Source: a virus
IMG/VR virus record: IMGVR_UViG_3300048691_000011
Span: 1 to 33,452 of that record
Length of the DNA: 33,452 bases
Reading direction: 5' to 3' (one strand)
Shown: positions 2,942 to 33,452 of the stretch, piece after piece
How the letters are laid out: each line of letters starts with the position of its first letter
Numbering within the stretch: the stretch's first letter is position 1
Position numbers and translations under genes: made by a program
The notes under the pieces: generated by a model
Database searches by the model: none
What the model saw: the letters and a program-made list of their open reading frames with translations, nothing else
What the model was told of the DNA's origin: nothing

Positions 2942-3298
2942 ATGTCTGAAGTCACCGTACAACAATTGGAAACTCAACGTGAAGGTATGAAACAAGCTGT
3001 TGAAATGCGTCAAGCAGTTCAACGTCTGACACAAAATGCAGACTTCCGTAAAGTAATCAACGAACAGTTCATGGAGAAGGAATGTGCACGTTATGTGCAA
3101 GCTTCCGGTGATCCTGCATTGAGTGAACGCAGTCAAAAGGATGCCTTGGCCATTGCCCAAGCTGCTGGACATTTGAAGCGTTACCTGTCTGTGCTTATCC
3201 AGATGGGTAATGCTGCAGAAAATGAGCTAGATTCCATTGATAGTGCTTTGGATGACGCTCGTGCTGAGACTGCACTTCCTATTGACAGTCTGGAGTAA
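2942..3298 (+). CDS. Small virion/head-assembly protein between portal and scaffold
   Basis: The protein has 118 residues and is almost entirely helical and charged. The pattern 'RQAVQRLTQNADFRKVINEQFMEKECARYV' followed by 'AIAQAAGHLKRYL' matches a small conserved protein found between portal and scaffold genes in many podoviruses with this head type. Its exact role is not known to me; position suggests head assembly or portal docking. The ATG follows 'CCATTCAGC', with no strong ribosome-binding site, 23 bases after the portal stop. It ends five bases before the scaffold start, so the two are probably translated together. Confidence 0.75.
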   Translation: MSEVTVQQLETQREGMKQAVEMRQAVQRLTQNADFRKVINEQFMEKECARYVQASGDPALSERSQKDALAIAQAAGHLKRYLSVLIQMGNAAENELDSIDSALDDARAETALPIDSLE

Positions 3299-3303
3299 CC
3301 AGT

Positions 3304-4491
3304 ATGGCTATTCTTGACGACGAAGCCTTCTTGAATGAAGCTCCACCTTCAGCTACAGAAACTGTGGCTGGGGATACTCCACCTATTGTTGATGAAACTC
3401 CAGACGTTGTTGTAGAGCCTCCTGCTTCTGTCGTTGAGGAAGTAATTGAGACTCCAACACAGAAGCCAGAAACAGACACACCTGCTTCTGGGGAGAGTAT
3501 TGAGTTGCCGAACCAAGAGAATGGTGAGGCAGACAATGCGCTCAGTCTCCCAAAAGCAGAGGAACCAGAGACTGAAACTGTTGTTAAAACAGTGGTTAAG
3601 CCTGAAGCCACAATCGAGGCAGTACCTGAAATTGTAAACTTTGAAGCCAAGTACAAAGAAGCTATGGCTCCTTTGAAGGCGAACGGCAAGACTATTGAAA
3701 TTCAGTCTATGGACGAATTGAGGCAGCTTGCGTCAATGGGTGCTAATTTCACCCGCAAGATGCAAGACATCGCACCGCATCGCAAGATTCTTGCAATGCT
3801 TGAAAATAATGGTCTACTTGATGAAACAAAGTTATCTTTTTTCATTGACTTGGATAAAAAGAATCCAGAAGCCCTCAAGAAACTGATTAAAGATTCAGGT
3901 GTTGATCCGCTGGATATTGATGTGAGCAGTGAACCCGCTTATAAAGCAGGCAATCATGTGGTGAGTGACAATGAAATTGCGTTTCGTGCAGTGTTGGAAG
4001 ACTTACAGTCCACCCCAACTGGCCAAGAAACCATTTCGTTGATTAACGCATCATGGGATCAAGCCTCTAAAGAAGAATTGTGGAAAGCTCCAGAAGTAAT
4101 GGCTACGATTCAACAGCAAAGAGAAAATGGTATCTACGATACTATCTCTGCTGAAATCAACCGTCAGGCTATGTTGGGCAAGATTTCTGCGGGTACTCCA
4201 TTTATTCAAGCTTACTTGACTGTAGGCAATGAGTTGAATACTCGCGGTGCATTTACTAATTTAAATGTACCAAGTAATAAAGGTGTGCAAAATGCGCCTA
4301 CGCAAACTACTGCCCCTGTTATTGCGCCAGTAGCTACCCGTGTGGTGGCTCCTAAATCGCAAGTAGCAAATGGTGCAGCAGCAAATGCAGCAGCCTTTAC
4401 ACGCCAAACCCAAAAACGCGTCGTACCTGTAGTAAACCTACAAAGTATGAGCGACGACGACTTTCTAAAGAATTGGCAAAACCGCCTTTAA
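3304..4491 (+). CDS. Capsid scaffolding protein (N4 gp57 position)
   Basis: The protein has 395 residues. Residues 1-105 are very acidic and rich in Pro, Thr, Glu and Val, and probably disordered. The middle (about 110-300) is helical, with 'MDELRQLASMGANFTRKMQDI' near residue 138. The tail is Ala-rich and ends in 'MSDDDFLKNWQNRL'. An acidic, disordered start plus a helical core directly before the major capsid gene is the hallmark of phage scaffolds, which guide procapsid assembly and are then removed. Position matches N4 gp57. The stop is followed by AAGGA, the ribosome-binding site of the capsid gene. The assignment rests on composition and order rather than a catalytic motif. Confidence 0.7.
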   Translation: MAILDDEAFLNEAPPSATETVAGDTPPIVDETPDVVVEPPASVVEEVIETPTQKPETDTPASGESIELPNQENGEADNALSLPKAEEPETETVVKTVVKPEATIEAVPEIVNFEAKYKEAMAPLKANGKTIEIQSMDELRQLASMGANFTRKMQDIAPHRKILAMLENNGLLDETKLSFFIDLDKKNPEALKKLIKDSGVDPLDIDVSSEPAYKAGNHVVSDNEIAFRAVLEDLQSTPTGQETISLINASWDQASKEELWKAPEVMATIQQQRENGIYDTISAEINRQAMLGKISAGTPFIQAYLTVGNELNTRGAFTNLNVPSNKGVQNAPTQTTAPVIAPVATRVVAPKSQVANGAAANAAAFTRQTQKRVVPVVNLQSMSDDDFLKNWQNRL

Positions 4492-4503
4492 GGATTGAAC
4501 AAA

Positions 4504-5715
4504 ATGTTGAATTACAACGCCCCTATTTCGGGTAGCAAATCATCTGTCGATGGTTCTGGCTCCAATCAAATGAACTCGTTTTACTGGTTGCGGAAATCTC
4601 TGATTGAAGCTCGCCGGGAACAGTTTTTTATGCCTTTGGCTTCGGTCACGAACATGCCAAAAAACTTTGGCAAGACTATCAAGGTCTATGAGTACGTGCC
4701 AATTCTAGATGACCGCAACGTGAACGATCAAGGTATTGACGCTGCTGGTGTCACCATTGCCAATGGCAATTTGTATGGTTCGTCCAAAGACGTTGGCACG
4801 ATTTCCAGCAAGCTGCCTCTGGTTGGTGAGAATGGTGGCCGTGTGAATCGTGTTGGTTTTACCCGTCTGTCGCGTGAAGCTTCGTTGCTGAAGTTTGGTT
4901 TTTTCTATGAATTCACCCAAGAGTCGATGGACTTTGACAGTGATGACATGCTGAAGGAACACTTGGCCCGTGAATTGATGAACGGTGCTACCAAGATCAC
5001 GGAAGACGTGCTGCAAAAAGACTTGCTGGCTTCGGCTGGTGTGGTTTTGTATGCTGGTTCTGCCACTTCCAACGCTACCATCCGTGGTGAAGTCAGTGGC
5101 CCTAATCCAATTTCACTCTTGAGCTACAAGAACATCATGCGTTTGTCTTCGGTACTTGATGAAAATCGTACACCGAAACAAACCACGGTGATCTCTGGTT
5201 CACGTTATGTGGATACCAAAGTCATTGGTGCTGGCCGTATTGCCTACATTGGTTCGGAGTTGGCTCCTGTCGTAATGGAAATTTTGGACAGTTTTGGCAA
5301 CCCTGCTTTTGTAGCTGTGCAGCATTACTCTGATGCAGGTACTGTTCTCAATGGTGAGATTGGTTCGGTTGGTCCTCTGCGTTTCGTACAAGTTCCTGAC
5401 ATGCTGCATTGGGCTGGCGCTGGTGCTACCGTTACTGCAAATCCGGGCTACCGCACTACTACTGTGCTCGGCGTGGAAAAGTATGACGTGTACCCTGTGC
5501 TGGTGGTGGGTGATCAGTCCTTCACAACCATTGGTTTCCAGACCGATGGCAAAACTGTGAAGTTCACGGTTATGACCAAAATGCCGGGTCGTGAGACTGC
5601 TGATCGGAATGATCCTTATGGTGAAACTGGTTTTAGTTCGATCAAGTGGTACTACGGTATTCTGGTCACACGTCCTGAACGTATCGGCTTGATGAAGTCG
5701 GTTGCTCCTATCTAA
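4504..5715 (+). CDS. Major capsid protein, N4-gp56 family
   Basis: The protein has 403 residues, the usual size for the N4 gp56 capsid family. Family-like features include the N-terminal '[21 protein letters not shown]' stretch split by conserved basic residues, '[23 protein letters not shown]', '[21 protein letters not shown]', and a late '[18 protein letters not shown]' end. It forms the icosahedral shell with an HK97-type fold. I start at ATG 4504 rather than TTG 4495, because AAGGA (4490-4494) is then about nine bases upstream and the TTG would be too close. A strong terminator follows 16 bases after the stop, which would give extra short transcripts for this most abundant protein. Confidence 0.93.
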
Positions 5716-5785: not shown

Positions 5786-6421
5786 ATGACTGAAAATGAA
5801 CAACTCCTTGCAGACTCGGAGAATCAAGTTGAACAAGAAAATGCTGAGATGGTTGAAGATGAACTGGCATTGTTGAAAGACCGTGCCAAACTGATGGGCA
5901 TCAAATTCTCCAACAACATTCGCATTGAATCTTTGCGTGAAAAGATTGCAGCAAAACAAGCAGGTGAAGAAGTGTCCGATGAACCAGTGACCAAAGTGAA
6001 TCCACTGGCTGCTGTCGGTGCTGCTGAAGAAGCGCCTCTTGTCAGACAAATGACGTTGCGTGAAATTATGGTTAAGGAACAGATGAAACTGGTACGCCTG
6101 CGTATTCAGAATCTGGACCCAAAAAAGAAAGACCTTCCCGGTGAAGTCTTGTGCGTGGCTAATGAATATCTGGGCACTATCAAGAAGTACATCCCATACG
6201 GTGAAGCAAGTGATGAAGGCTACCATGTGCCATTCTGTATTTATACGGAAATGGAGTCACGGCGCTTCCAGAATGTGCGTACCTATACAGACAAGGCTAC
6301 TGGCCAAATCCGTATTGAATCGTCTTGGGTGCGTGAGTTCTCCTTGGAAATACTGCCTCCTTTGACACAAGCTGAATTGACCCAATTGGCTTCTGCACAA
6401 GCGGCGGCTGGAAACAAATAA
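5786..6421 (+). CDS. N4 gp55-like structural/head protein
   Basis: The protein has 211 residues. The N-terminal 25 residues are acidic. Residues about 28-62 ('LLKDRAKLMGIKFSNNIRIESLREKI') look like a small helix-extension-helix (HeH/SAP-like) nucleic-acid-binding fold. The C-terminal half ('RLRIQNLDPKKKDLPGEV...VPF...ESRRFQNVRTYTD') resembles N4 gp55, which lies in the same place just after the capsid gene. Its precise job is unknown. GGTAAATAACATG gives a modest ribosome-binding site, and the octamer TTGGTTCC lies in the leader at 5760-5767. Confidence 0.7.
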   Translation: MTENEQLLADSENQVEQENAEMVEDELALLKDRAKLMGIKFSNNIRIESLREKIAAKQAGEEVSDEPVTKVNPLAAVGAAEEAPLVRQMTLREIMVKEQMKLVRLRIQNLDPKKKDLPGEVLCVANEYLGTIKKYIPYGEASDEGYHVPFCIYTEMESRRFQNVRTYTDKATGQIRIESSWVREFSLEILPPLTQAELTQLASAQAAAGNK

Positions 6422-12548: not shown

Positions 12549-15500
12549 ATGTCTGACTTTCAAACCCTGTTGAATCAATATTCCGGTGGTAGTGTATTAG
12601 GAGAAAAACAGAAAGTAGTAGCACAAACTGCTGCCCAAAAGCAAGCACGTTTGGGCGGTATGCCTATGCCTTCTGCTGCTACCTACACCAATGCTGTGGT
12701 GGGGGGACAAAACAATGTCGGTGCTAATTCTGCTTCCATGATGGAATTGGAACTACGTGAATTAACCCCTTTCCAGTTGGCCATGAAATATGGTGAGAGT
12801 ACTGCAGCTCAATTGAATACTGGCATGGTGGATGCTGCTTCAGACATTCAACGCAAGCTTTCTGTTGAACGTAGCCCGGGCCGTGCTATTGGTGATACGG
12901 TGACTGAGATTCTGTCAGGTGCTGTAAATGGTATTGCAAACGTTGGTAATGTTGGTTTAGGCATTATTGATAAAACTACCAATACTCTTAACAGTGGTGT
13001 AAATGCAGGGCTTGGTGCTTTGGGTATTAACTATAAACTTCCCAATTCAAATCTGGGTATTAATACTGCTCAAGCTTTGAGTGGCATTAACAAGGCTGTT
13101 GCTAGTACAGAGTCTGAAACTCTACAAAATCGCAATGAAATTCTGGCAATAAAGAATAACCTGACCAACCGTGATAACACACTGGCAATGGATCAGGAGA
13201 TTACTGCTGGTGGTGATTCCACAATAGCAGGATTGAAGCGTATTGGGAATGACTTTCTTGATGCTGTGGGCAATGCCACAGATGACCCGACTACGTTCAT
13301 GTCAGGCACTGCTCAAGGTATTGGTTCCTTACTTGCTGCTGGCCCTATCGCCAAAGGTATCACTCTGGCTGGTACAACTGCTGGCCGTGCCTCTGGATTG
13401 CTCACTGAAGCTGCTGCTCGTGCAGTACCCAAGATAGCTACAGGTGCTGTGCCCTTGTCTATTGGTGCAATGGAAGCTGGTGGTGCTTACCAACAGACAG
13501 CTACTGCTGCTATGGAGAAGCTGGCTGGTCGTGCCGACTTGAGCCAAGAACAGAAACAATCATTGGCTAACGACACTGCTTTGAAAGCTGCTTCGTGGGT
13601 TGCTCCTGCTGCGATCTTGGCAGGTAAGCTGGTTGCGCCATTTGAAGCAAACCCTCTATCTAAAGTTGGTTTCAAGACTGCCGCTAGCAACATCATTAAG
13701 GAACCAATTGAAGAAAGTATCCAAGGTGGTGTTGGCCAAGCTGCACAGAACTTGGCCGCACAACAGAACATTGACCCCACACAATCCTTGTCTCAAGGTG
13801 TAGGTGAACAAGCTGGTGTTGGTGCGTTGTACGGTCTTGGTACTACTGGTGTGCTTCAAGTACCTGCTGTTGGTCGTGGCACTGTGGAAGCTGCAGTTAA
13901 AGCTGCTGGTTCAATCATTGGTGGTGTGACTGACTATCTGGCCAAACGTGGTGACAAACTTATGGCAGAGACTGAAGCTGCTGGCCCTGCATCCATCAAT
14001 CGTACTGTTGAGCAGTCTTTTGCTTTGGTTCAAGTAGCTCCTGCACTTAAAACTGAAGTAGAACAGGCATTGGCTCCTGTTGCTAAAGATACGCCTGAAG
14101 TGGCCGCTGCTAAAGCAACTGCTATGGCAGATTTCCCTGGCTTCATTGATGCACTAAACATTCAAGAAAGTGAATTGCAGTCACCTCTTTTGCAGCCTGT
14201 GGCTTCTGTTATTGCTGGTGCAAAAACACGTCCTGAAGCAATCACTGCAGTGCTAGCAGACATAAAGCAAGAGAAAGACCCTAAGGCTTACTTTGCGAAA
14301 GCAGTTGCTTTGCAGACTTTAATTGATACTGCTTTGTCAGCGACAGACAAATTGGGAGGCATTGACGATACGTTGCTCCCCCCGGAGATAAGCAAACTCT
14401 TCCAGAGTGTTGCCGGGATTGGTGATTCCCTGTTGAACTCGCCAGAAGTCATGGGACATTTGGTCAAAGCTACTCAACTGTTGCAATCACCTGCTGGTGT
14501 GAAGCTTATGAATGAGTTGCAACAAACACCTGAATCAGCACAGGTCATCGCTATGGTTGCTCAAACTAACCCTGATCAAATTGTTCCTGCTGTGGGCAGG
14601 ATAGTTTTGAAAATGGCACAAGAAGGGGAACTTGTATTAACTGATGCTCAGAAAACTTCTTTGCAATCAGCCGTTAATTTGATGGAATCAGCACAAGCTT
14701 TTGATGTTGAGTTGAAAGCACAGGGTGTGCCAAAACTTCGGGACATTGTGACTTTTGAAATTAAAACTGAAGATGACCCAAAACTAGATAAGCAAGGTAC
14801 ACGTTCTGCTTTACAACATGCCCGTGGTATTGCTACGTTGGCAATGCGTGGGGATATGAAAGGTGCCAAGGCAGCATTACAAGCACTGGGTAATTTTGCC
14901 CTAGGTCAATCCAACAAAGTGACTGGTATCAATCAACACTATGCTGCTGGTCCAAATGCACCCCGTATAACTGTGCAGGTTGCATCTTTTAAAGGTGGAA
15001 TGACTGACATTAAAACGCCAGTCGGTATTTCCCCCACGAAAGAAGGTTCTATTAACCATGCAAAGCGTGTTACTGCTGAGGCACGCTTCTTGGCCAACAT
15101 GTACAACAAGTTGAATGAGACATACAACTTGGGTTTATCAGCACTTCCAATTGTTGAATTGGATGCTGCTTTATCCAGTGGCCGTACTGCTGATGTAGTT
15201 GCTGAATTCAACAATGGTAAACGTGGTTACCCACAACAACAGACATTGCGGCCTGCTGCTGTTCTTCCTGTTACCACGGTGGTAACTCCTGCTGCACCTG
15301 TGGTGAAAGCCAAGAAAGAACGTAAACCTAAAGCAGTCAAAGAACCTAAGCCTCTGAAGATTTCCAAGGCTGTGAAAGCAAGCAAGACAGCTAAATTGCA
15401 AGAGCGTTTGAATACTGAAAAGCGTTCAGCTATTCTGGAACAAATCAAAGCTGAGTTAGCCCTGCGTGAAAATACATCAACCCCGGAGATTACAAATGCC

Positions 15501-18500
15501 ACTCAAACCTCTGAAGCCATCCAAACAAAACCGAACCAAACGCCCCAAGAAACAGGAACCAGTGCAACAGGAACTTCCGCTGTAACACCAGTTGTTACGC
15601 CTGCAAAAGTAGATGCTGTAAATGTACAGGTTACTCCTCCTGCTGCACCAAAGACAGTGGCTGAAGCCTACCCTGAATTGTTGGGCAATACCCGTGGTGT
15701 AACCTCGCTGGATAAGGCATTCAGCCTACGCAAGATTGCCTCTCGTTTCCTTGGTTCGGTATCACCTGCAGCACTGGTGCAGTCTGTTCTTGGTTCCACT
15801 GATGCACTAGTGGACTTCCTCGGTAGAGACACAACCAAGCGTTCTTTGACGCCTGAGATTACTACTTACTATGTAGAGCGTGTGCCCGCAATGGTGGGTG
15901 AGTTGGTCAAGCGTATGAATGCTTCCATGAATACAGCTCTTGATATTGTGCCCAAGAGTGGCACCAGTCTTCGTATGCTGCTGGACAAGGGTGAGCCTGT
16001 TCATGATTACTTGCGTGGCAAGGCACTGAACATTGTTGAGTCTGATGGCAAAGGTGGCTATATCTATAACCAAGAGCTTGTAGAAGCTGCTGTTCTTGGT
16101 TCCTTGAATTGGTTCCAGAATGCAACCAATATGGGTGTTATTCGTGAACAAAAAGACGTTGCAGCTTTACTTGGTATCAATGAAGATGATGTGTCTGATC
16201 AGATGCTGGCAGCATTCAACAGTGGTGATCAACTGACTATGTGGGATGTGATTCCACGTATTGCAGCAAACATCACTGAGTTCTGGGGTATGAAGGCTAA
16301 CAATGATTTCTCACAGTCAGCTACTGTAGGTATTCCTCAAGCAGTGGCAACTGAAGTGCTCACTGCCATGATTGAGGTTGGTCTGGTTGAATACAACAAG
16401 ATCAAGCCTGAAGGTGCAACACAAGACTTGAACGTGTTCAAGCTGGATCATGAACAATTGGGTACTGGCTATGAAGCTTATCCAACATTCTTGGCTGAAA
16501 TGGCCAATTCTGAAATCATTGAACCAATGTACTTTGGTGATGCTGTTGTACCTGTGGCTAAGACACAGATGAACAATGCTGATGTGGCATTGACTTCTGA
16601 TCAAGTCAAGGCAATTGAGCATGAACAGAAGACTCCATTCTTTTTGAACCAACCGATGCTGGACTTATACAAGCAGCTTGGTCTAGATAGTTTGCTCAAT
16701 ATCTTTGGTGCTGGTGTTTTGAATGAAGAGGACAAGAAACTGTTCAATAAGACTCACCTTGAGTCAGTGGAAGGTAAGAATCTTTCCATTCTGTCTGCAT
16801 TTGAATCACTGCTTGGTCGTGCTGAAGAGATGCAGAATATTGCTGATGCAAATGGTGTGCCCCTGAATAGACTGTCAGCACGTTTTGCTTATGGCATGAG
16901 TCGTGCTGGTCGTATGCAGATGTTGGGTAAACAGAATCCTCAAGCATCTAAGTTGGTACGTGAAGCATTGATGCCCAATGCAGCAACTATTGATTTGAAC
17001 AATGCTGATGACTACAACGGCTATATGCTGGCAGTAGCACAGATGCTTGGCATCAAAGTGCACACAAAGCCTATTGAAGATTCTGTTACTGAAGCAAAAG
17101 CACTGCTTGATGGCAAGCTGAAGCCTGCAGTCGATCTGATGCTGAAGTTCAATGAGACTGGAACATTAGATAAGGATGCTGAAGAAGTACTTAAGGAATT
17201 GATGCCTCTTGCTAAAGGTACATTCATGGGTCTTCATGCCATTGTTGACTATGCTCGTACACAAGCTGATGGCTTTGATGGTACAGAGTACACAACCAAT
17301 GTTTACGTTGAAGCAGACGGTATGACTAATGGTCCTATTAATGCGATGGTGAATCTGTTTGCTGGCCGATTCAATTTGAATTGGCTTCAAAATATTGCCA
17401 AAGGTGGTCTGTACTTAACACCTAATCAAACTGCCAACCAACACCGTAAAACTGATGGTGTTGACTTGTATGGACAAGCTACCAAACAATTTGATATAGC
17501 ACGTCTTGCACTGAAAGCCAATCTTGATAAAGATGGTGTTGGTGCACAAATGACTACCTTGATGAAATTGATGAGTACATTTATCAAGGACATTACTGTT
17601 AGTGAAGGTGGTGACGTTACTCTTACCCGAGGTGTTGCAAAGAATCCTTTAACCATTACCATTTATGGTTCTGGTGAACGTGGTATTGCCAACAAAGTAA
17701 CTGGTGAACTGCTGGATGCTATTTATGCCAAGATGTCAGAAGCAATGCAGAAGCAGGCCAATTATGAAAAGGATTCCACTGGTGCTGAGTTGACATTTGC
17801 ACAAGCAATGTTTGGGCTTACTCATACAAATCCTGACGCAGCATTGACCGAGTTCCGTAATGCTTTGGTTCAGTTGTCCACACGTATTGTGGTCTATTCA
17901 TCCAAGAAAGATAAGCATTTCAACGTACCACATTCTGTTGACCCATTTGATGCTCTTGTCAGGAACATGACTACACCTATTCGTGTGGGTGATCCACAAT
18001 TGTTTAAGGTGAGTGGTGCACAACTTGCAGCATTACAAGAGAACATGTTAACTCTGTTTGTGAAGCCATTGCGTCAAGGCATTGAGCAGACTGTTGGTGC
18101 TGAAGTTATGGCAACAGCCAAAATGCTTCAAATCGCTACACAGGTTCAGTCAATCGGTTTGCAGGCTGCATTCAAACAAGCAGTGGCTGATGCACTGGTA
18201 AAGTTTCAACGCCCCGATACACTGTTTCTGAGCAAGAATGAACAGAGCTTGATCATGCAAGAACTGATTAAAAAGTTTCCTACGGTCAAGACTAAAGCTC
18301 AAGAGTTTCTGATTGCTAGTACTTCACAGAGTCAAGTCAAGGCATCTGATTTCTCTCGTGCATTGAACAATGGTTTGGAGATGAAAGCATCTGTATTTGC
18401 ACCTGCAGATTCTGGTGTGGCTGGTTCCCCACTCCTGAACATTGGTATGGGTGATGGTTTGATGATGCAAACCATGAGTCTGATGAAGGATGCCATTCAA

Positions 18501-21500
18501 GGCACTCTGAAGATTTTTGACGGTGTGAATATTCCTGTTGATAAGATTAAGGAAGGCTCACTGCAAGCCAACACTGCTGTGGCAGAGACTTGGCAAGGCA
18601 ACCCGATGCGTGCTGTGGCTGACAGTTTCAAGGCTGCACTGGGCAATATTGAAGAGGCAATGAAATCTGCCACCGAAGATGAAATCAAAGCCGTAGAGCG
18701 TATTTTTGTATCCTTTGGGTTGCCAAGTTTGGACATGAAAGATGGTCTGGAATACATCTTGAGTGAGGTGGAGCACATGGCCAACCAAGTAGAAGCACGG
18801 CATTTGACGATGCAAACTGTGTCTCATTCCATTGATCAGATGGCTTCTGCTGAAGCACCATTTCAGAACCAAGGGGAAAACCTTTCTGCCTTGGCTCCTG
18901 AAGCTCAAGTGATTCGCCTCAATGAGATTTATCAACAGAAGCTGACCGAAATACAAGCTCACCGTGGCGCTAATGCATCTGTTTCTGCAGAGCTTGAAGG
19001 ACGTAACAGCACACCGATGCCCCGCATCATGTACACCTTTGAAGGTATGTTGACTGAGATTAGTAAGTTGCCCGCTGACTTACAAGAAACAGCCAAGCAA
19101 GCTTTGCGTAGTCCTGCCATGCGTGATTACGTGATCATTGTGGCCTCTCCTGAAGACATCAATGCTGAGACTGGTGGTTTGCTTGGTTCTTCTAATGGTG
19201 TGACTGACATTGAAAACAAACGTGTCTACATTGCTTCGACCAATCCTGAAGTCTGGGTGCATGAGTTGGTGCACGCTGCTACCTTTGAAAAGGTGCAGAG
19301 CGTGCTGAGTGGAACCAACAAAGACAAAGTAACCATTACTGCTGTGGAGCATCTGCAAGCACTGCGTGATCAGTTCAAGATCATGAGCAATGACCAAGCA
19401 ACTTGGACTACTGAGCAAGTACGTGCTTACCGTGAAGCTATCAATTCAATGGCTGTTGCCAAGATGGAATATGGTGAAGCTGCTGAGTTGAATGAGTTGA
19501 TGGCTTGGGCCACAACCAACAGTGCATTGATTGAATTGGGTAAAGCTACCCCTGCTACTTTCCGTGCATTTGAAAAGTTTACACGGGCAACAGTCAACGC
19601 AATTCGCCGTATTTTCTTTGGTTCTTCTCCTGACAAATTGCCACGAGATTTTTTCAATGCTGTGCGTTTCAACACTACATTGATTGCTACCCGCAAACAA
19701 CCTTCAGCAACTGAAGAAGGACAGGATTTGATTCTGCGTCACACCAACAGTTATGGTAATGATGCTCGCTTGAACCAAATTCAAAGTACCTATTTGTCAA
19801 TGATGACTCCTTTGTTTGCTGGTCTGAAAAACCAAGCAAAGAAAATGAATGCTGCTATTTACTCAACCAATTTAGCATTGGCTGTTGAATCTGCATTCCC
19901 AATGAACCAACAAGGGAAAAGTACTTTTCAAACTGTGGTGGCAGCATTGGCAACAGAAGCAGTAATCAATCCTGCATCAATGGCTAAAGCACAAGAGCTT
20001 TATAACCATGTGACTAAGCAGTTAGAAGTTGAAGACTTCATGAACAATCCTGAGTTGCAAGACCCAGTGGACCGTTTTTATGCTCAAGAAAAGTATGACG
20101 TGATCATGGGTAAGACTGGGCTTGTGAAAGATGCTCTGGGCCGTAGCTCGCTGATGCCCGTGTTTCTAGCATTGGCTACGACTGATGCTGGTTTTCGTTC
20201 TATTTTGTCCAAGATGAACATGCCTGAAGTAGTTAAGAACACTGGCTCAACACTGGATGTTTACTTGCGTAACTATGGCACTGAAGCAATGGAAGCATTG
20301 TCTGATCGTTTGTCTGGTGTGAAGTCCACTGATACAGTGACACAGGCTATTGATAATCTTCAGAGTAATGTTGTGGCCAACAATGCAGAGAAGACTAGCA
20401 TCCTAGGGATGGTGAGCAACAAGTTTGGTGGGTGGGTAGATATTACCAATGATTACGCTGTAGAAAAGCTTGGTGCCACAGCTACTGCTGGTGTTGCCTT
20501 GGGCGACAAGATGGAGAAGTCCAATTTCAAAGTAGTGTCTGGTGCTGCTGGTATTGTGAAAGTATTGTCAGGTAGTTTGTCAGACAAGACTTCTGCATTC
20601 ATGGCTGAAGGTCTACTGTCTGCCATGAACAGTCGTAATGGTTTACAACCCCTACGAGATTTTGCCAATGACATGCTTGGACGTGTGGCCTCTAATGCCA
20701 ATATTTACGACATGATCAAACAAGTACGCTCTACTGTTGCTGCTGTTCGTCAGGAGTTTCGTGAGAATGTGCCTACCAAATTGACCAAGACATTCAAAAT
20801 TGCTCCTACTGATGAAGTATGGACTGAATTGAATCGTGCAATGGGTAAGACTGATATGGCAGCTTTGGATATGCCTTTTGCTGATATTGTTGAGTTGGTT
20901 CGCAATAAGGCACAGACTGCTCGTGAAATCAAGACACGAGAAGATGCAATCCGGGCAGAGCTTGGTGCTGTGGCTCCAAGGTATCTGACCAAAGCTGCAC
21001 AGTTAGCCAAGTACATGAAGACAGGTATTGTGGGGAATAATTTGTTGCGTAATGCAGGGGCTATTGCTTACCTTGTGCAGAACAAAGCACCTAGCCCATC
21101 GCTGGTTAAGAATATTGATGAACTCGTATCTCTGTATGCTCTGCGTGATATGGAACAGAATGAGCGTGATGCCTTTAATTCTTTGGTTCAAGATGAAGGT
21201 TTGGAATTTACTTTCATGTATTTGAAACAACAACGTTCTGATGAGACTGCTAAAGCTCTGCAGTATGGTGGTTCCAAATTTAATCACTATAAAGGATACA
21301 TCCCTTCAGTTCAATCTTCGGGTATGTCTCTGATTGTGGCTGATGATGCTCAAGATGCACGGCTTAAAGCTATGAGTTATGTGCGTGTGGGTGATTACAA
21401 CGGTGCTGGCGCTGAAGGTATTGTGGTAAAACGTGGTTATTACTTTAATAATGCACCTACCCGTGGGACATTCAACCAAGGCATTATGCAAAATGTGAAC

Positions 21501-23039
21501 ATTACTGCTAATGGTGTTGGTGCAGTACATGGCTTTACACAAGGTTTAACTGCAGGTGTGATTACTGATCCCATTTATGTAGCCAAACTGTCCAAGCGTA
21601 TTGCAATGGGTGCTGAAAAAGGAACCAATGAACACTTGATGCCGATCTTTGATGAACAAGGCACAGTGTTTGCTTATGAACGCTCTGTTGACCCTGTTCA
21701 ATTGGAACGACTACAGAGTAATAACAAGCTGCATCAAATGCTTGGTGTGTGGCGTGGTCGTCAAATTGAAGAAGCAATGGCTAATGAAATCAACAACAAA
21801 TTGGTTGATAACATGGTGCAGATGTATGAGAAAGATAAGAAGGCTAATCGTGGGTCTGAGTATGTGAATATTTTTGATCCAAAGGATAAAATCCTTGCTG
21901 ATGCTTTGAAGTTAATGCCTACTGCTGTGCGTGAATACATGCTTGCAGCTACGGGAAATACGGATGAATTTTGGGTGCGTCGTGATATGGTGTTTGATGC
22001 TTTTGGCTACCGTACCGCATCAGTGGGTGATGCTTGGACTGGCAATAGTCGCTTCTCTGACGAGACACAGAAAGTGTTTCAGAAGGTTGCTTTGGGTGTG
22101 ATGGGGAATCAAGCCTTCAGTCGTTTGCTTACGGCTGAGAAGTTTGTTCAAGGCTTTATGTCTGATGCCCGTACCACTATTGTTGTGAAGTCTGTCATTG
22201 TCCCCGCATTGAATTTGATTTCCAATTTGGGACAATTGGTAGCTCGTGGCGTACCAGTGAAAGATGTGTTGCGCAAAGCTCCTGCCAAGACTGCTGAGAT
22301 TGAGTCTTACGTGAAGAACCGTTTGCGTCAAGTGGATGCTGAAGCTGAACTGCGTGCAGCCAAGACAACCAATGAAACACTCAAACTGGAAGCTGAGATT
22401 CAGTCATTGAAAGATGCTCAACGTCGCTTGACCATTTGGCCATTGATTGAAGCTGGTGAGTTCACAGCCATTTCTGATGTGGGACTGACCCATGATGATG
22501 TTGACTTGAGCCAAGGACGTTGGCACCAGTACATTGAGAAGCAGGTAGACAAGCTGCCAGAGGCTGTTCGCAATGCTGGCAGGTACGCATACATCACCAA
22601 AGACACTGCGTTGTTCCAAGGGCTGCAAAAGGCTGTTCAGTATGGTGATTTCTTAGGTAAAGCACTTATGTACGATGATATGGTGCTTCGCCAAAAGAAA
22701 ACTCCTGCTGAAGCAATGGCACGAATCACAGAGGAATTTGTGAACTATGATCGTCTACCCGGTAGATTCCGTGGGTATCTGGAACAGATGGGTATGCTTT
22801 GGTTCTACAACTTCAAGTTGCGTTCATCCAAAGTGGCAATCAGCATGATGCGTAACAACCCTGTACACGCTTTGATGAGTAATTTTATGCCAGTGCCTGA
22901 AGTGTTTGGTCCTGTTGGTTCCCCGTTGGAAGACAACTTTTTAGCCAAAGCTGCTGGTGACACTCTTGGTTATTCAATTGGGCCGGGTATGGGATTCCGT
23001 GCACCAACAATGAATCCTTGGTGGCAGATGGTGAACTAA
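12549..23039 (+). CDS. Giant virion-encapsulated RNA polymerase (N4 gp50 vRNAP-like)
   Basis: The protein has 3496 residues, the size of N4 vRNAP (about 3500). Residues 1-900 are Ala/Gly-rich helical, with hydrophobic patches at about 115-140 and 255-330. A Lys-rich hinge (about 918-975) and a Pro/Thr linker precede the polymerase core. The core has the TxxGR-like motif SRAGR (R1455), motif A 'VEADGMTNG' (D1590), motif B R-x3-K-x7-Y (R1694, K1698, Y1706) and motif C 'KIFDGVN' (D1991). From memory the N4 mini-vRNAP residues are R424, D559, R666, K670, Y678 and D951, so spacing is nearly the same (135 residues from R to D in both). A HELVH zincin-like motif lies at 2238-2242. The enzyme would be injected with the DNA to transcribe early genes. 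AGGAATACC precedes the ATG. Confidence 0.93.
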   Translation: MSDFQTLLNQYSGGSVLGEKQKVVAQTAAQKQARLGGMPMPSAATYTNAVVGGQNNVGANSASMMELELRELTPFQLAMKYGESTAAQLNTGMVDAASDIQRKLSVERSPGRAIGDTVTEILSGAVNGIANVGNVGLGIIDKTTNTLNSGVNAGLGALGINYKLPNSNLGINTAQALSGINKAVASTESETLQNRNEILAIKNNLTNRDNTLAMDQEITAGGDSTIAGLKRIGNDFLDAVGNATDDPTTFMSGTAQGIGSLLAAGPIAKGITLAGTTAGRASGLLTEAAARAVPKIATGAVPLSIGAMEAGGAYQQTATAAMEKLAGRADLSQEQKQSLANDTALKAASWVAPAAILAGKLVAPFEANPLSKVGFKTAASNIIKEPIEESIQGGVGQAAQNLAAQQNIDPTQSLSQGVGEQAGVGALYGLGTTGVLQVPAVGRGTVEAAVKAAGSIIGGVTDYLAKRGDKLMAETEAAGPASINRTVEQSFALVQVAPALKTEVEQALAPVAKDTPEVAAAKATAMADFPGFIDALNIQESELQSPLLQPVASVIAGAKTRPEAITAVLADIKQEKDPKAYFAKAVALQTLIDTALSATDKLGGIDDTLLPPEISKLFQSVAGIGDSLLNSPEVMGHLVKATQLLQSPAGVKLMNELQQTPESAQVIAMVAQTNPDQIVPAVGRIVLKMAQEGELVLTDAQKTSLQSAVNLMESAQAFDVELKAQGVPKLRDIVTFEIKTEDDPKLDKQGTRSALQHARGIATLAMRGDMKGAKAALQALGNFALGQSNKVTGINQHYAAGPNAPRITVQVASFKGGMTDIKTPVGISPTKEGSINHAKRVTAEARFLANMYNKLNETYNLGLSALPIVELDAALSSGRTADVVAEFNNGKRGYPQQQTLRPAAVLPVTTVVTPAAPVVKAKKERKPKAVKEPKPLKISKAVKASKTAKLQERLNTEKRSAILEQIKAELALRENTSTPEITNATQTSEAIQTKPNQTPQETGTSATGTSAVTPVVTPAKVDAVNVQVTPPAAPKTVAEAYPELLGNTRGVTSLDKAFSLRKIASRFLGSVSPAALVQSVLGSTDALVDFLGRDTTKRSLTPEITTYYVERVPAMVGELVKRMNASMNTALDIVPKSGTSLRMLLDKGEPVHDYLRGKALNIVESDGKGGYIYNQELVEAAVLGSLNWFQNATNMGVIREQKDVAALLGINEDDVSDQMLAAFNSGDQLTMWDVIPRIAANITEFWGMKANNDFSQSATVGIPQAVATEVLTAMIEVGLVEYNKIKPEGATQDLNVFKLDHEQLGTGYEAYPTFLAEMANSEIIEPMYFGDAVVPVAKTQMNNADVALTSDQVKAIEHEQKTPFFLNQPMLDLYKQLGLDSLLNIFGAGVLNEEDKKLFNKTHLESVEGKNLSILSAFESLLGRAEEMQNIADANGVPLNRLSARFAYGMSRAGRMQMLGKQNPQASKLVREALMPNAATIDLNNADDYNGYMLAVAQMLGIKVHTKPIEDSVTEAKALLDGKLKPAVDLMLKFNETGTLDKDAEEVLKELMPLAKGTFMGLHAIVDYARTQADGFDGTEYTTNVYVEADGMTNGPINAMVNLFAGRFNLNWLQNIAKGGLYLTPNQTANQHRKTDGVDLYGQATKQFDIARLALKANLDKDGVGAQMTTLMKLMSTFIKDITVSEGGDVTLTRGVAKNPLTITIYGSGERGIANKVTGELLDAIYAKMSEAMQKQANYEKDSTGAELTFAQAMFGLTHTNPDAALTEFRNALVQLSTRIVVYSSKKDKHFNVPHSVDPFDALVRNMTTPIRVGDPQLFKVSGAQLAALQENMLTLFVKPLRQGIEQTVGAEVMATAKMLQIATQVQSIGLQAAFKQAVADALVKFQRPDTLFLSKNEQSLIMQELIKKFPTVKTKAQEFLIASTSQSQVKASDFSRALNNGLEMKASVFAPADSGVAGSPLLNIGMGDGLMMQTMSLMKDAIQGTLKIFDGVNIPVDKIKEGSLQANTAVAETWQGNPMRAVADSFKAALGNIEEAMKSATEDEIKAVERIFVSFGLPSLDMKDGLEYILSEVEHMANQVEARHLTMQTVSHSIDQMASAEAPFQNQGENLSALAPEAQVIRLNEIYQQKLTEIQAHRGANASVSAELEGRNSTPMPRIMYTFEGMLTEISKLPADLQETAKQALRSPAMRDYVIIVASPEDINAETGGLLGSSNGVTDIENKRVYIASTNPEVWVHELVHAATFEKVQSVLSGTNKDKVTITAVEHLQALRDQFKIMSNDQATWTTEQVRAYREAINSMAVAKMEYGEAAELNELMAWATTNSALIELGKATPATFRAFEKFTRATVNAIRRIFFGSSPDKLPRDFFNAVRFNTTLIATRKQPSATEEGQDLILRHTNSYGNDARLNQIQSTYLSMMTPLFAGLKNQAKKMNAAIYSTNLALAVESAFPMNQQGKSTFQTVVAALATEAVINPASMAKAQELYNHVTKQLEVEDFMNNPELQDPVDRFYAQEKYDVIMGKTGLVKDALGRSSLMPVFLALATTDAGFRSILSKMNMPEVVKNTGSTLDVYLRNYGTEAMEALSDRLSGVKSTDTVTQAIDNLQSNVVANNAEKTSILGMVSNKFGGWVDITNDYAVEKLGATATAGVALGDKMEKSNFKVVSGAAGIVKVLSGSLSDKTSAFMAEGLLSAMNSRNGLQPLRDFANDMLGRVASNANIYDMIKQVRSTVAAVRQEFRENVPTKLTKTFKIAPTDEVWTELNRAMGKTDMAALDMPFADIVELVRNKAQTAREIKTREDAIRAELGAVAPRYLTKAAQLAKYMKTGIVGNNLLRNAGAIAYLVQNKAPSPSLVKNIDELVSLYALRDMEQNERDAFNSLVQDEGLEFTFMYLKQQRSDETAKALQYGGSKFNHYKGYIPSVQSSGMSLIVADDAQDARLKAMSYVRVGDYNGAGAEGIVVKRGYYFNNAPTRGTFNQGIMQNVNITANGVGAVHGFTQGLTAGVITDPIYVAKLSKRIAMGAEKGTNEHLMPIFDEQGTVFAYERSVDPVQLERLQSNNKLHQMLGVWRGRQIEEAMANEINNKLVDNMVQMYEKDKKANRGSEYVNIFDPKDKILADALKLMPTAVREYMLAATGNTDEFWVRRDMVFDAFGYRTASVGDAWTGNSRFSDETQKVFQKVALGVMGNQAFSRLLTAEKFVQGFMSDARTTIVVKSVIVPALNLISNLGQLVARGVPVKDVLRKAPAKTAEIESYVKNRLRQVDAEAELRAAKTTNETLKLEAEIQSLKDAQRRLTIWPLIEAGEFTAISDVGLTHDDVDLSQGRWHQYIEKQVDKLPEAVRNAGRYAYITKDTALFQGLQKAVQYGDFLGKALMYDDMVLRQKKTPAEAMARITEEFVNYDRLPGRFRGYLEQMGMLWFYNFKLRSSKVAISMMRNNPVHALMSNFMPVPEVFGPVGSPLEDNFLAKAAGDTLGYSIGPGMGFRAPTMNPWWQMVN

Positions 23040-30044: not shown

Positions 30045-30176
30045 CTATTTTAGGGTGAATATGCTGGCGCAAACCATCACAAGTGCAGTCATTTTTTGGT
30101 CGAATGCAGACAATGCAATAGCAGCGGAACCAAGCAAAACAAAGAATACGAAATTCTTTTTGATGAAGTTAATCAT
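30045..30176 (-). CDS. Small hydrophobic protein coupled to the polymerase gene
   Basis: This short frame encodes 43 residues with a hydrophobic helix after 'MINFIKKN' (about 9-24) and a second hydrophobic stretch (about 28-41). Its ATG overlaps the polymerase stop (ATGA), a clear sign of coupled translation, and the terminator follows. The function is unknown. The two helices suggest a membrane location. Confidence 0.6.
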   Translation of the reverse strand: MINFIKKNFVFFVLLGSAAIALSAFDQKMTALVMVCASIFTLK

Positions 30177-30955
30177 GACATTGCTTTTGTAACAATGGAG
30201 ATGATTTTATTCTCCGTGGCATTGTTGGGAATGCCAATTTCATCCTCCCATGTTGGATAGAAAATAGACAGTTCACCTCCTAAACCAACAGTGGGGTGAT
30301 AAATGTCTGGGTGATCATTCCAATTGACTTCACGCACCAGATGCTTGTTTAAAAACATTAGTGCATCCACGTCATCTCGGATAAGCACATAACCAGCATC
30401 ATGGATTTGTGCACAAGGTCGAATTGCTTCAGCATATTTACTATCACGAACAATCTTCATGGTTGCTGCCCATGCACGAGAGTTCAACAAACACCAACTT
30501 TGGCCAAGAGCATTACCAGCAGTACGTCCTTCAGCTTCTGCTTCCCGTGGTGTCTGACGATTACCACGAATAACTTGAGCAAGTAATGGTGTGCGAACAC
30601 GTAAACCAAATGCACCAGTGATATAACCATCTTTGGCTGCACCATCAAGTTTGTTTTGCACCCAAGCAGTACTCACGGTATAAAGCTTGAGATAACTGTT
30701 TTCAATTTGATGAGCAACAGCAGGGGTAAACCCGCAGTTTTTAACCAGAGTTGACCAAGTACCTTGATAGGTTTATTTCCCTTAGTCGCCCACTACTTAC
30801 GCAGTGGGCGACCATCGGGTAAGAGCGAAGGTTGGGGCTTTACTCTTTTGGCGTTCTCCTTTATATATTACTTCGATTGAATTAATGCGATGAACATCAT
30901 GTTCACTGCGCGAAACTTCTTGCACCGAGGCAAGCGTATTATCAACAGTTAGCAT
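30173..30955 (-). CDS. Family A DNA polymerase, C-terminal piece, interrupted by a 45-nt gap
   Basis: This is the downstream piece of the split polymerase. ATG 30955 has AAGGA five bases upstream. The first 46 codons end 'RQKSKAPTFALT'. A 45-nt stretch with three in-frame TAA codons follows, and the same frame then continues 'YQGTWSTLVKNCGF' to the stop. Joined, 'SKAPTFALTYQGTW' is motif B (O-helix: K39, F43, Y47), exactly as in related phage polymerases. Motif C is 'CAQIHDAGYVLIRDD', and the C-terminus 'PNNATENKI' is complete. A joined product has 244 residues. Without joining, only a useless 52-residue peptide is made; a GTG at 30676 would begin downstream of motif B. Intact motifs on both sides argue against simple decay. 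Confidence 0.85.
30773..30817 (-). other. Candidate translational bypass (ribosome-hopping) element
   Basis: This is 45 nt between two ACC codons (30818-30820 and 30770-30772), in frame, with TAA at 30797-30799, 30782-30784 and 30773-30775. Bases 30783-30814 fold into a 14-bp stem (two G-U pairs) closed by a GUAA tetraloop. AAGGGA (30783-30778) ends six bases before the second ACC, like a Shine-Dalgarno guide. Matching take-off and landing codons, a hairpin, stops in the gap, a landing guide and exactly 46 upstream codons are the features of T4 gene 60 bypassing. It is too short for a group I or II intron. Function is inferred. Confidence 0.72.
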
Positions 30956-31018: not shown

Positions 31019-32941
31019 TTAGATTGTACAGAGTCCTGCTACACAGGCCATTTCTTGTGAGCCTTCAGTTTGGTCATCCAGTTCAATGAACTGATCCCAG
31101 TTGATCGTACCGGGGTACTTGGCCAAAAACTCGGTGTATGCCTCTTTGGTGATTTCTTGGAATGGTGCTTGGCGGTAAGAGCCATTGTCGTGAGGCAAGA
31201 AGCTCACACCAGAGATTTCATCAAAGTGTTTGTACACCCATGCACCAGCTTCCAGCCATTCGTGGTCACGCACGTAAATGGTGATGGAAGGCTTATGTTC
31301 ACACCAATGACGCTGAAACATCAACCAATGCTCTAGCTGCTCAATAGCAGTACGATCATCACGCATCACTGCACCTTCAGGTGACTTAACCACGAAACTG
31401 AAGATTGTCTCAGTGTCAGGTTTCATCACACTTGGTTCCCAAGCAATGCCTTGATCTTTTAAGAATTGAGTGAGAGGGTCTTTGTTATCTTGGCGATAAG
31501 TACGTATGTAGTACTGACCGAAGCGAGGATGCAGGCCACCTGTACCAGCATTGGTCAACTGAGCAACAGTGCCAGAAGGTTTGTTGCAAGTGATAGCCAC
31601 AGAAACATTGATGCCAAAGTAGCCAGCCCATTCAGTAGCTACTGCACGAGCTAGATCACGAAGCTTTTGCAACCATTCCACGGCAACATCATTGACGTTG
31701 TTAAGGACTGGATGGTCCATCACACCTGTCATAGATACACCAAGCAAACGCTCTTCTTCACAGTTCTTTTGTAGTTCTGGGTCAACACCTTTGAAGTCTG
31801 TCAAAGTGGATTGATAGACTCCCATGATGGTTGCTACAGTAATTTTTGCAGCCAATGTTTCATAGGTGTCATTAAAACGAACTACAGCCTCAGTCAAGTT
31901 GCACATCTGATTGGAGCGAAGCAGAATTTCTGAACATGGGTTACAGCCATAGTCGTAATCAGCAGAACGACGATTCCAACGAGAAGCCTGCTTTTTAGCA
32001 GCAGCACGGTTAAAGATACCACGCTCACCAGATTTGGACTTGATGAGGGACAACCACTCAGCCATAAAGATTTCAATTTCAGGACGTTCTGTGTAAACAG
32101 CAGAGTTGTTGGCCAAACCACGTTGACCATGTGAAATCCACCACTGACCTTCTTTGGCGTCACGCATACGTTGATCAGACAGATTGCTCAGACTGATCAA
32201 AGCACTACGGCGAACACCACCCACCACAACAATGTCAGCAATGAGGCAGCAAATGTCATGCACTTCCAGTGATGTGAGTTTCCGACCAGCCGCATTGATA
32301 AACAAGTTGCTTACAAAATCAAAGAGCCGTTTCAAAGGCTCAGGTCCAGAAGCACGACCACCAAAAGTTTTCAGGCGAGCGCCTTTAGCACGTACTTTGG
32401 AATAGTCTACTTGAGGTGCAGCACCTTGGTAGAGGTAACGCAGCAGAATACTGAAAGCATTTGCCCAACCTTCTTTGGAGTCTTTTACCACAATCACATC
32501 ATCAGTTTTATTGATAGTGTCAGGAATAGCAGGAAGCTTGGTAATAAACTGACGTTCACAGGAAAATCCAGAACCAGTACCGTGCAGCAAGATCAATAAC
32601 ATGTCACTGAATTTGCGAACTTTATCAATGGCACCATAATGACAGTTGTATGCAGCGATATTGTTACGCTTAACTGCTTCACCTGCAGTCATCAGTAAAC
32701 GCATTGAGGGCATAGTCCTCAGTGTATAAACATCAGTCTCCAAAGTAGATGCAACTTCTAACCATTTGGTTAATGCTTGGGGGAATTTTTCAGTGATGTG
32801 TTCTTGAGCAAAACTAAAGTAACGTTCCACAGTTTCATCCCAAGATTCACGCCGCTTTTCACTGTCAAGATAGCGTGCGTACTTACTTTTAGCAATGTAC
32901 TCTTGTTGGGGCGTGTCAAAGATTGTTTTTTGTTGATTCAT
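31019..32941 (-). CDS. Class II (B12-dependent) ribonucleotide reductase
   Basis: The protein has 640 residues from ATG 32941. It reduces ribonucleotides to deoxyribonucleotides using adenosylcobalamin. Key residues line up with the Lactobacillus leichmannii enzyme: C100 ('YNCHYG', C119 there), N334/C336/E338 in 'GCNPCSEI' (N406/C408/E410), C347 in 'QMCNLTE' (C419, same 11-residue spacing) and the C-terminal pair C633/C638 in 'CVAGLC' (C731/C736). 'CNKPSGTVAQL' is another family motif. It is shorter than the 739-residue Lactobacillus enzyme. The start is uncertain: ATG 32962 is also in frame, but its GAGGGG directly touches it. The gene lies inside the polymerase gene, between its two pieces. 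The host must supply or import B12. Confidence 0.93.
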   Translation of the reverse strand: MNQQKTIFDTPQQEYIAKSKYARYLDSEKRRESWDETVERYFSFAQEHITEKFPQALTKWLEVASTLETDVYTLRTMPSMRLLMTAGEAVKRNNIAAYNCHYGAIDKVRKFSDMLLILLHGTGSGFSCERQFITKLPAIPDTINKTDDVIVVKDSKEGWANAFSILLRYLYQGAAPQVDYSKVRAKGARLKTFGGRASGPEPLKRLFDFVSNLFINAAGRKLTSLEVHDICCLIADIVVVGGVRRSALISLSNLSDQRMRDAKEGQWWISHGQRGLANNSAVYTERPEIEIFMAEWLSLIKSKSGERGIFNRAAAKKQASRWNRRSADYDYGCNPCSEILLRSNQMCNLTEAVVRFNDTYETLAAKITVATIMGVYQSTLTDFKGVDPELQKNCEEERLLGVSMTGVMDHPVLNNVNDVAVEWLQKLRDLARAVATEWAGYFGINVSVAITCNKPSGTVAQLTNAGTGGLHPRFGQYYIRTYRQDNKDPLTQFLKDQGIAWEPSVMKPDTETIFSFVVKSPEGAVMRDDRTAIEQLEHWLMFQRHWCEHKPSITIYVRDHEWLEAGAWVYKHFDEISGVSFLPHDNGSYRQAPFQEITKEAYTEFLAKYPGTINWDQFIELDDQTEGSQEMACVAGLCTI

Positions 32942-32981: not shown

Positions 32982-33247
32982 TTAGTTAGACAGTAGCTGA
33001 TATAACTCAGCACCTGTCACTCTCTTTCCCATGTACATGATGATTTCATGTTCATGGAAATAGATTTCTTTGGTTCCAAGCATTGCTTTGTAACACTTAG
33101 CCCCCTCCGGGGCACGTTCAATGTCAAGCATTGCCTCACCAAAGTAAGCTTGTGCTCGTAGACTGTGCCCGTCGAATCCTTCCAAGTAGACTGTAAGTTT
33201 GTTTGGGTCTTTCGTGGTGAGTGCAGAGATGCGATCTTCTAATGCAA
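32982..33247 (-). CDS. Family A DNA polymerase, middle piece (exon after group I intron), partial
   Basis: Coding resumes after the intron in the middle of motif A: 'ALEDRISALTTKDPNKLTVYLEG' then 'GFDGHSLRAQAYFGEAM', a pattern known from phage family A polymerases ('DF.aLEdRisALtTkDPNKL...GyDGHsLRay.YFG'). The catalytic Asp of motif A and the exonuclease domain would lie upstream, outside the window. The piece ends with TAA 32982-32984 after 'TGAELYQLLSN', before motif B. The reductase gene follows, and the remainder of the polymerase resumes at 30955. The polymerase is therefore probably made as two polypeptides. The splice-site codon is split after its first base if the intron ends at 33248. 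Confidence 0.83.
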
Positions 33248-33452
33248 CTGTTACGTAGTTCGTAAAACTACTCCCATGTTTCCACGGGTGTCGGACTATA
33301 TCACCACCCTTTACGGGTGAGTACTGCTTCGAAAAGCCATAAACTTGCTTCTCTACTCCCTTGCGGGATAGTCTCTGAACCTTACTCATAGCGCCATGTG
33401 AAGCCACCAGCCCTAGGCCGGATTCCTCGCACAACTTTTGAAATGTTTTGCC
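33248..33452 (-). ncRNA. Group I intron, 3' half (td-like), in DNA polymerase motif A
   Basis: The core sequence matches the T4 td intron pattern: GACTATCCC-GCAA-GGGAGTAG (33373-33353) and GATATAGTCC (33302-33293), the conserved P7/P3/P8 and 3' P7 elements. P9 is CCCGTG-GAAA-CATGGG (33288-33273), with a GNRA loop. A further hairpin GTAGTT-TTACG-AACTAC (33271-33255) follows. The intron should end with G 33248 or G 33245. The 5' half, including the guide and any homing endonuclease, lies beyond the window. The frame is open through the visible intron (start of 'KLCEESGLGLVASHG' near 33434), so part of it may be the end of an intron-encoded protein. Confidence 0.87.

Follow-up and report, generated by a model that had tools for sequence, protein, structure and literature searches.

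In phages of the JA-1 group, the DNA polymerase (DNAP) gene is split by an HNH gene that is possibly borne by an intron (PMC3670811). Group IA introns with HNH genes also interrupt family A polymerase genes in SPO1, SP82, Bastille, and Pf-WMP3, as described in a second study (PMC3428280), and in T7-like phages such as JeanTinguely. That study counts three or more sites at which introns occur in phage DNAP genes, with positions 676 and 881 (E. coli numbering) among them, and its passages on these sites make no mention of motif A. The introns of JeanTinguely and MQM1 are located at a site different from the one described below, in motif C (AWVH|DE).

The DNA analyzed here, referred to as the window, is the entire IMG/VR record IMGVR_UViG_3300048691_000011, a linear stretch of 33452 nt. 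It comes from an N4-like phage and carries genes encoding the portal, the major head protein, the ssDNA-binding protein, and the virion RNA polymerase (12549-23039). The interrupted gene encodes an N4-like (Schitoviridae-type) family A DNA polymerase, lies on the minus strand, and is cut by the right end of the contig. Its exon located 3' of the intron aligns with residues 591-640 of the N4 DNAP and matched the profiles phrog_2573 and phrog_17, and the C-terminal tail of this exon was also found in relatives.

The closest described introns are those of the Pacinivirus phages JA-1, VCO139, JSF3, and phi 1 (PMC3670811), which share with the window the insertion into motif A of an N4-like DNAP, the P7-P9 core, and an HNH ORF ending just before P7 with a near-identical C-terminus, but whose junction lies 3 nt further downstream, the intron of the window being also devoid of its 5' half. 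Another intron in motif A was found in the DNAP gene of Pseudoalteromonas phage pYD6-A (NC_020849), which encodes a protein approximately 43-45% identical to that of N4. This intron is complete (RF00028, 88 bits, E = 7e-23) and is likewise a group I intron with an internal HNH gene, but the HNH protein carries NUMOD1 and the junction is at Leu592. As complete homologous introns are thus present 3 nt downstream in JA-1, phi 1, and pYD6-A, the intron of the window is of an already known kind. It adds to a known group, and the sequence around it is of more interest than the intron itself.

A leave-one-out covariance model (R1), built from the P7-P9 region of 11 other phage group I introns with the window excluded, gave by cmsearch a single match in the window, with 83.4 bits and an E-value of 5.7e-17 (Table 1), and no match in 29 intron-minus relatives. 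When the P7-P9 segments of 12 phage introns were aligned and their base pairs counted, 99.2% of the cells in P7, P7.1, P8, and P9 were paired, versus 31-47% in a control in which the helices were slid by 1-3 columns, and both sides had changed in 13 of the 20 pairs. Every pair of these four helices is kept in the window. Rfam detected nothing in the window at its gathering cut-off, and a permissive scan with RF00028 reported the region 33452-33272 (minus strand), a 5'-truncated piece, with 16.5 bits compared to a gathering score of 50 bits (E = 0.052). At the nucleotide level, blastn matched the P7-P9 core best to an intron in terL from a V5-like phage (76.6% across some 93 nt; E = 2e-7); introns of this type, such as that of RudolfGeigy, share the core but reside in the gene of the large terminase. 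The border between the HNH gene and P7 matched that of the JA-1 DNAP intron (72% over 100 nt, E = 1e-4). The group I intron in the window is real, far beyond chance. The td-like core and the P9 hairpin put forward in the original prediction were thus recovered at the positions given, on the minus strand, and the covariance search succeeded for the part present on the contig, i.e., the 3' half of the intron, the 5' half lying beyond the contig end. In IMG/VR, a pattern scan in which LEDRI had to come after a group I P7 yielded no N4-like polymerase interrupted at this site, either with a strict pattern or among the matches listed for a looser one.

On the minus strand, the end of the HNH gene is followed in the 5' to 3' direction by P7, P7.1, P7.2, the 3' strand of P3, P8, P7', P9, an extra hairpin, and G33245. 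In the predicted fold, the window reads GGG-A-GUA-GAGAAGC...GCUUUUC, P7.1 and P7.2 being joined by GUA, and such a joint is given as the mark of subgroup IA2 in the study cited above (PMC3428280). The intron is td-like and, by its GUA joint, belongs to subgroup IA2. P1-P6, the internal guide sequence, the 5' strand of P3, and the 5' exon are located beyond the contig end at position 33452, and the intron may thus be incomplete or inactive.

The HNH ORF (frame CAA-AAC-ATT) ends within the intron at a TAA codon (33384-33382, minus strand), before P7 begins at position 33373, a layout also found in JA-1, and the remainder of the ORF lies past the contig end. Its C-terminus is identical to that of the JA-1 HNH protein at 18 of 22 positions (E = 2e-13 for the pair). 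The JA-1 homologue carries an HNH_3 domain (E = 7e-10), and the window holds only the C-terminal 22 residues of its own protein. Apart from Pacinivirus genomes already known, scans for relatives of this protein gave only three matches, all weak and partial. The reading frame of the HNH C-terminus differs from the one used in the original prediction, and the open frame of 150-156 aa that spans the intron and enters the exon is incidental. This frame stays open from 33452 to 32982, and it could be proposed that no intron is present and that the frame encodes a real polymerase fragment with a divergent N-terminal extension. However, the frame crosses the covarying RNA core and clashes with the HNH frame, and the extension had no phage protein match beyond the neighbors of motif A, so that next to no credence can be given to this proposal.

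Table 1. Coordinates of the features of the interrupted DNA polymerase locus. Positions are those of the window unless another phage is named.
Feature	Coordinates	Strand	Basis
C-terminal end of the HNH homing-endonuclease ORF (QNISKVVRGIRPRAGGFTWRYE)	33382..33452	-	JA-1 match
3' half of the group I intron core	33271..33375	-	cmsearch, covariation, fold
P7 strands	33373-33368 pairing with 33299-33294	-	intron core
P9	33288-33273	-	intron core
Hairpin following P9 (GTAGTTTTACGAACTAC)	33255..33271	-	sequence, minimum-energy fold
Predicted last intron base (G), before the 3' splice site	33245	-	motif A spacing, terminal-G rule, L003/JA-1 comparison
Polymerase exon 3' of the intron	32982..33244	-	motif A remainder ... 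MLDIER, C-terminal tail, stop codon
Ribonucleotide reductase gene (B12-dependent) flanked by the two polymerase ORFs	31019..32941	-	Pfam PF21995, PF02867, PF17975
First part of the second polymerase ORF (46 codons from ATG to ACC, ...INSIEVIYKGERQKSKAPTFALT)	30818..30955	-	sequence, codon count
45-nt non-coding gap, candidate translational bypass element	30773..30817	-	same-site gaps, hairpin, L003 without gap
Rest of the polymerase, beginning at the matched ACC codon (TYQGTW), with motif C (IHDA) and the stop (30173)	30173..30772	-	tblastn, phrog_2573, phrog_17
Gaps of relatives L011/L012 and L013	from 5954
Gap of relative L222	9793-9755	-
Intron-like inserts of phi 1 (L214)	3264-4102 and 4206-5042

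Motif A reads D588-F-A-S591-L592-E-D in the numbering of the N4 DNAP. We take Ser591 and Leu592, from the usual Pol I motif A alignment, to be the equivalents of residues 708 and 709 of E. coli Pol I, shortly after the catalytic Asp705. In the intron-free relative L003, motif A is uninterrupted (GAC TTC GCA AGT CTG GAA GAT), and the sequence is 97-98% identical to that of the window from the junction onward. In N4 numbering, the polymerase sequence is taken up again at residue 591 in the window, and at 591/592 in JA-1, phi 1, and pYD6-A. Group I introns end in G, the sequence after the intron of the window is CA-TTA-GAA-GAT, and the 3' splice site is most likely G33245|C33244, in phase 1 of Ser591; because exon 1 is missing, we infer this junction from the flanking sequence. 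The junctions of JA-1, phi 1, and pYD6-A lie 3 nt downstream of that of the window, in phase 1 of Leu592, and the three introns all end with ...AATG|TAGARGAT, which would favor the use of exactly the same site in the window. This is unlikely, as the intron would then end on T and not on G.

With an exon probably starting at C33244, the "ALEDRIS" stretch that had been given as the exon start is inside motif A as claimed, but its apparent Ala codon would be half intron and would become U|CA, i.e., Ser, upon splicing. That a group I intron interrupts motif A of the polymerase was borne out, with the core found and the exon resuming at N4 residue 591. The site was also described as belonging to the motif that holds the catalytic Asp; the motif is the right one, but the Asp itself is in the missing upstream exon, the predicted Ser591 lying three codons after it. 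The preference of mobile introns for conserved codons in phage polymerase genes holds as well, and motif A of family A polymerases appears as a repeated intron target: three or more lineages of N4-like phages carry an intron there, at either of two positions separated by 3 nt.

The feature is thus very probably a mobile group IA intron with an HNH gene, inserted in motif A of an N4-like polymerase and represented in the window by its 3' half. In the mechanism that we propose, the pre-mRNA would self-splice, the intron ending on G33245 and the upstream exon, with a final U, being joined to CA-UUA-GAA-GAU, and the spliced product would read ...D-F-x-S-L-E-D-R-I-S. The HNH protein would cut intron-free alleles, and their repair would copy the intron in. 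Alternatively, the intron could be degenerate and unable to splice, the HNH gene splitting the polymerase into pieces that assemble as proteins, or the gene could be dead. At another site, the polymerase gene is indeed divided with no splicing involved, and the 5' half of the intron is unseen. However, the core retains all its P7, P7.1, P8, and P9 pairs, translation of the downstream exon could not start at any codon that preserves motif A, and this exon, given its identity to L003, is under constraint, which makes a degenerate intron very unlikely. Finally, the feature lies within the final 205 nt of a linear fragment, and a mixture of alleles with and without an intron is a frequent cause of breaks in assemblies, so that the contig end might be a chimera in which the assembly joined intron and polymerase pieces. 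However, the join lies within 3 nt of the codon used by real phage introns, and motif A is left in frame. A chimera is extremely unlikely.

Downstream of the intron, the first polymerase ORF continues up to ...MLDIER, a tail, and a stop codon. The reductase gene that follows matched phrog_367 (E = 1.6e-168), and the second ORF has an RBS and an ATG, the polymerase resuming at ...RINSI. This genes-in-pieces arrangement is like those of the Aeh1 nrdA gene and phage 25 gene 43 (PMC2988022).

A polymerase in two ORFs with a conserved tail and head and a variable middle gene was observed in the window (33032-30933, minus strand) and in relatives L003-L007, L011, L013, L017, L025, L029, and L222. 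The middle gene was the same reductase in L003-L006, Nmad5 in L007, a ligase-like gene in L017, and an HNH gene in L013, with L011, L014, and L222 looking alike by eye; only a short spacer separates the polymerase ORFs in L025 and L029. The tail after MLDIER, which has a Cys, was considered as a split intein, but this was set aside, as L015 and L017 lack the Cys and inspection by eye revealed no intein blocks.

The second polymerase ORF is itself interrupted in motif B, at SKAPTFALT^YQGT, by a gap with stop codons within its 45 nt and an ACC codon on either side. The gap is made of a hairpin (GTCGCCCACT/AGTGGGCGAC) followed by AAGGGAAATAA. Motif B is continuous in N4 and in L003, which is approximately 95% identical to the window just downstream. 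At the same codon boundary, gaps were found in three other uncultured phages, L013 (45 nt), L011/L012 (44 nt, from two metagenome samples), and L222 (37 nt), and two of these lengths (44 and 37 nt) are not multiples of three. The inserts of the window, L011/L012, L013, and L222 are unrelated in sequence but share their design: all four are flanked by Thr codons and become rich in purines ahead of the landing codon. The flanking codons are ACC/ACC in the window and ACT/ACT in L011, and are only synonymous in L013 (ACC/ACT) and L222 (ACT/ACA). The hairpin of the window has a folding energy of -32.5 kcal/mol (z = -8.9 compared to shuffled sequence), and z-scores of -3.5 to -6.2 were obtained for the gap hairpins of the other phages. 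A tblastn search with the polymerase remainder gave matches in 463 phage records. Among 473 isolate phage records with the motif B region, all 60 that were listed matched in a single piece.

Identity to L003 fell from about 85-95% to 57-65% only in a stretch of 120 nt preceding the gap (30932-30813, minus strand). On either side, the window is mostly 80-95% identical to L003, and identity returns at the landing codon, as if the head and the gap had been copied in together as a co-converted tract.

Short inserts were also observed in the split polymerases of two other phages. L014 has a 5-nt insert with TAG (TAGCT, 5954-5958) at ALT^YQGT, and L016 has a 6-nt insert with TAG (TAGCTT, around 5984) five codons upstream of this site; these could be frameshift errors or gap remnants. 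Other matches to the gap pattern (L221, L223-L226, L228, and L229) had no polymerase context and were discarded as chance matches.

The locus resembles T4 gene 60 with its homing gene mobA (PMC5009743, PMC2988022). In both, the 3' part of a gene is split off by a homing endonuclease gene (HEG) or its replacement, and there is a small non-coding insert that forms a hairpin, with matched codons and a run rich in purines ahead of the landing site, but the T4 gene encodes a topoisomerase and not a polymerase, the HEG is replaced by a reductase in the window, and the sequences are unrelated. The recurrence of gaps at the same boundary, their hairpins, their Thr codons, and the drop in identity to L003 thus suggest that the 45-nt gap is probably a bypass element of the T4 gene 60 type. 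The gap may instead be removed from the RNA, without ribosome bypass. To our knowledge, the bypass element of T4 gene 60 is rare and long stood almost alone among phages, and a search of mainly openly accessible literature returned no report of gaps in motif B. Should ribosomes bypass the motif B gaps, T4 gene 60 would gain natural counterparts, and four sequences without relation to one another would be available for comparing the roles of the matched codons, the hairpin, and the nascent peptide. For the locus as a whole, the chances are about even that it combines the motif A intron with a T4 mobA/gene 60-like cassette, in which the HEG was replaced by the reductase gene, and that a recurrent bypass of 37-45 nt is needed to read motif B in these uncultured N4-like phages.

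The three interruptions are located at N4 residues 591, about 638, and 661/662. They are of three different kinds, and only one of them is an intron. The original prediction had counted three interruptions in about 150 codons and regarded their density as unusual. All three are present, but they span 71 codons (N4 numbering), and while three unlike kinds do lie close together, clustering as such has precedents. In Vibrio phage phi 1, two intron-like inserts with HNH genes are separated by about 35 codons in one DNAP gene, and in L018, about 90 codons contain an intein-like insert (near residue 552) together with two gene splits (near residues 612 and 640). Clustered interruptions are thus not unique to the polymerase gene of the window. 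The wider value of this locus lies in one essential enzyme with three unlike interruptions at such short distances.

The intein-like insert of L018 (CVAGDTQVMTEDG ... VNHN, around 3260-3957) is located in the SSSEPN region. The same relative shows a second split after KLLVY (4157-5046), made of a tail, an HNH-like gene, and a head. The tail resembles that of the 640 site, suggesting that the tail may travel with the element.
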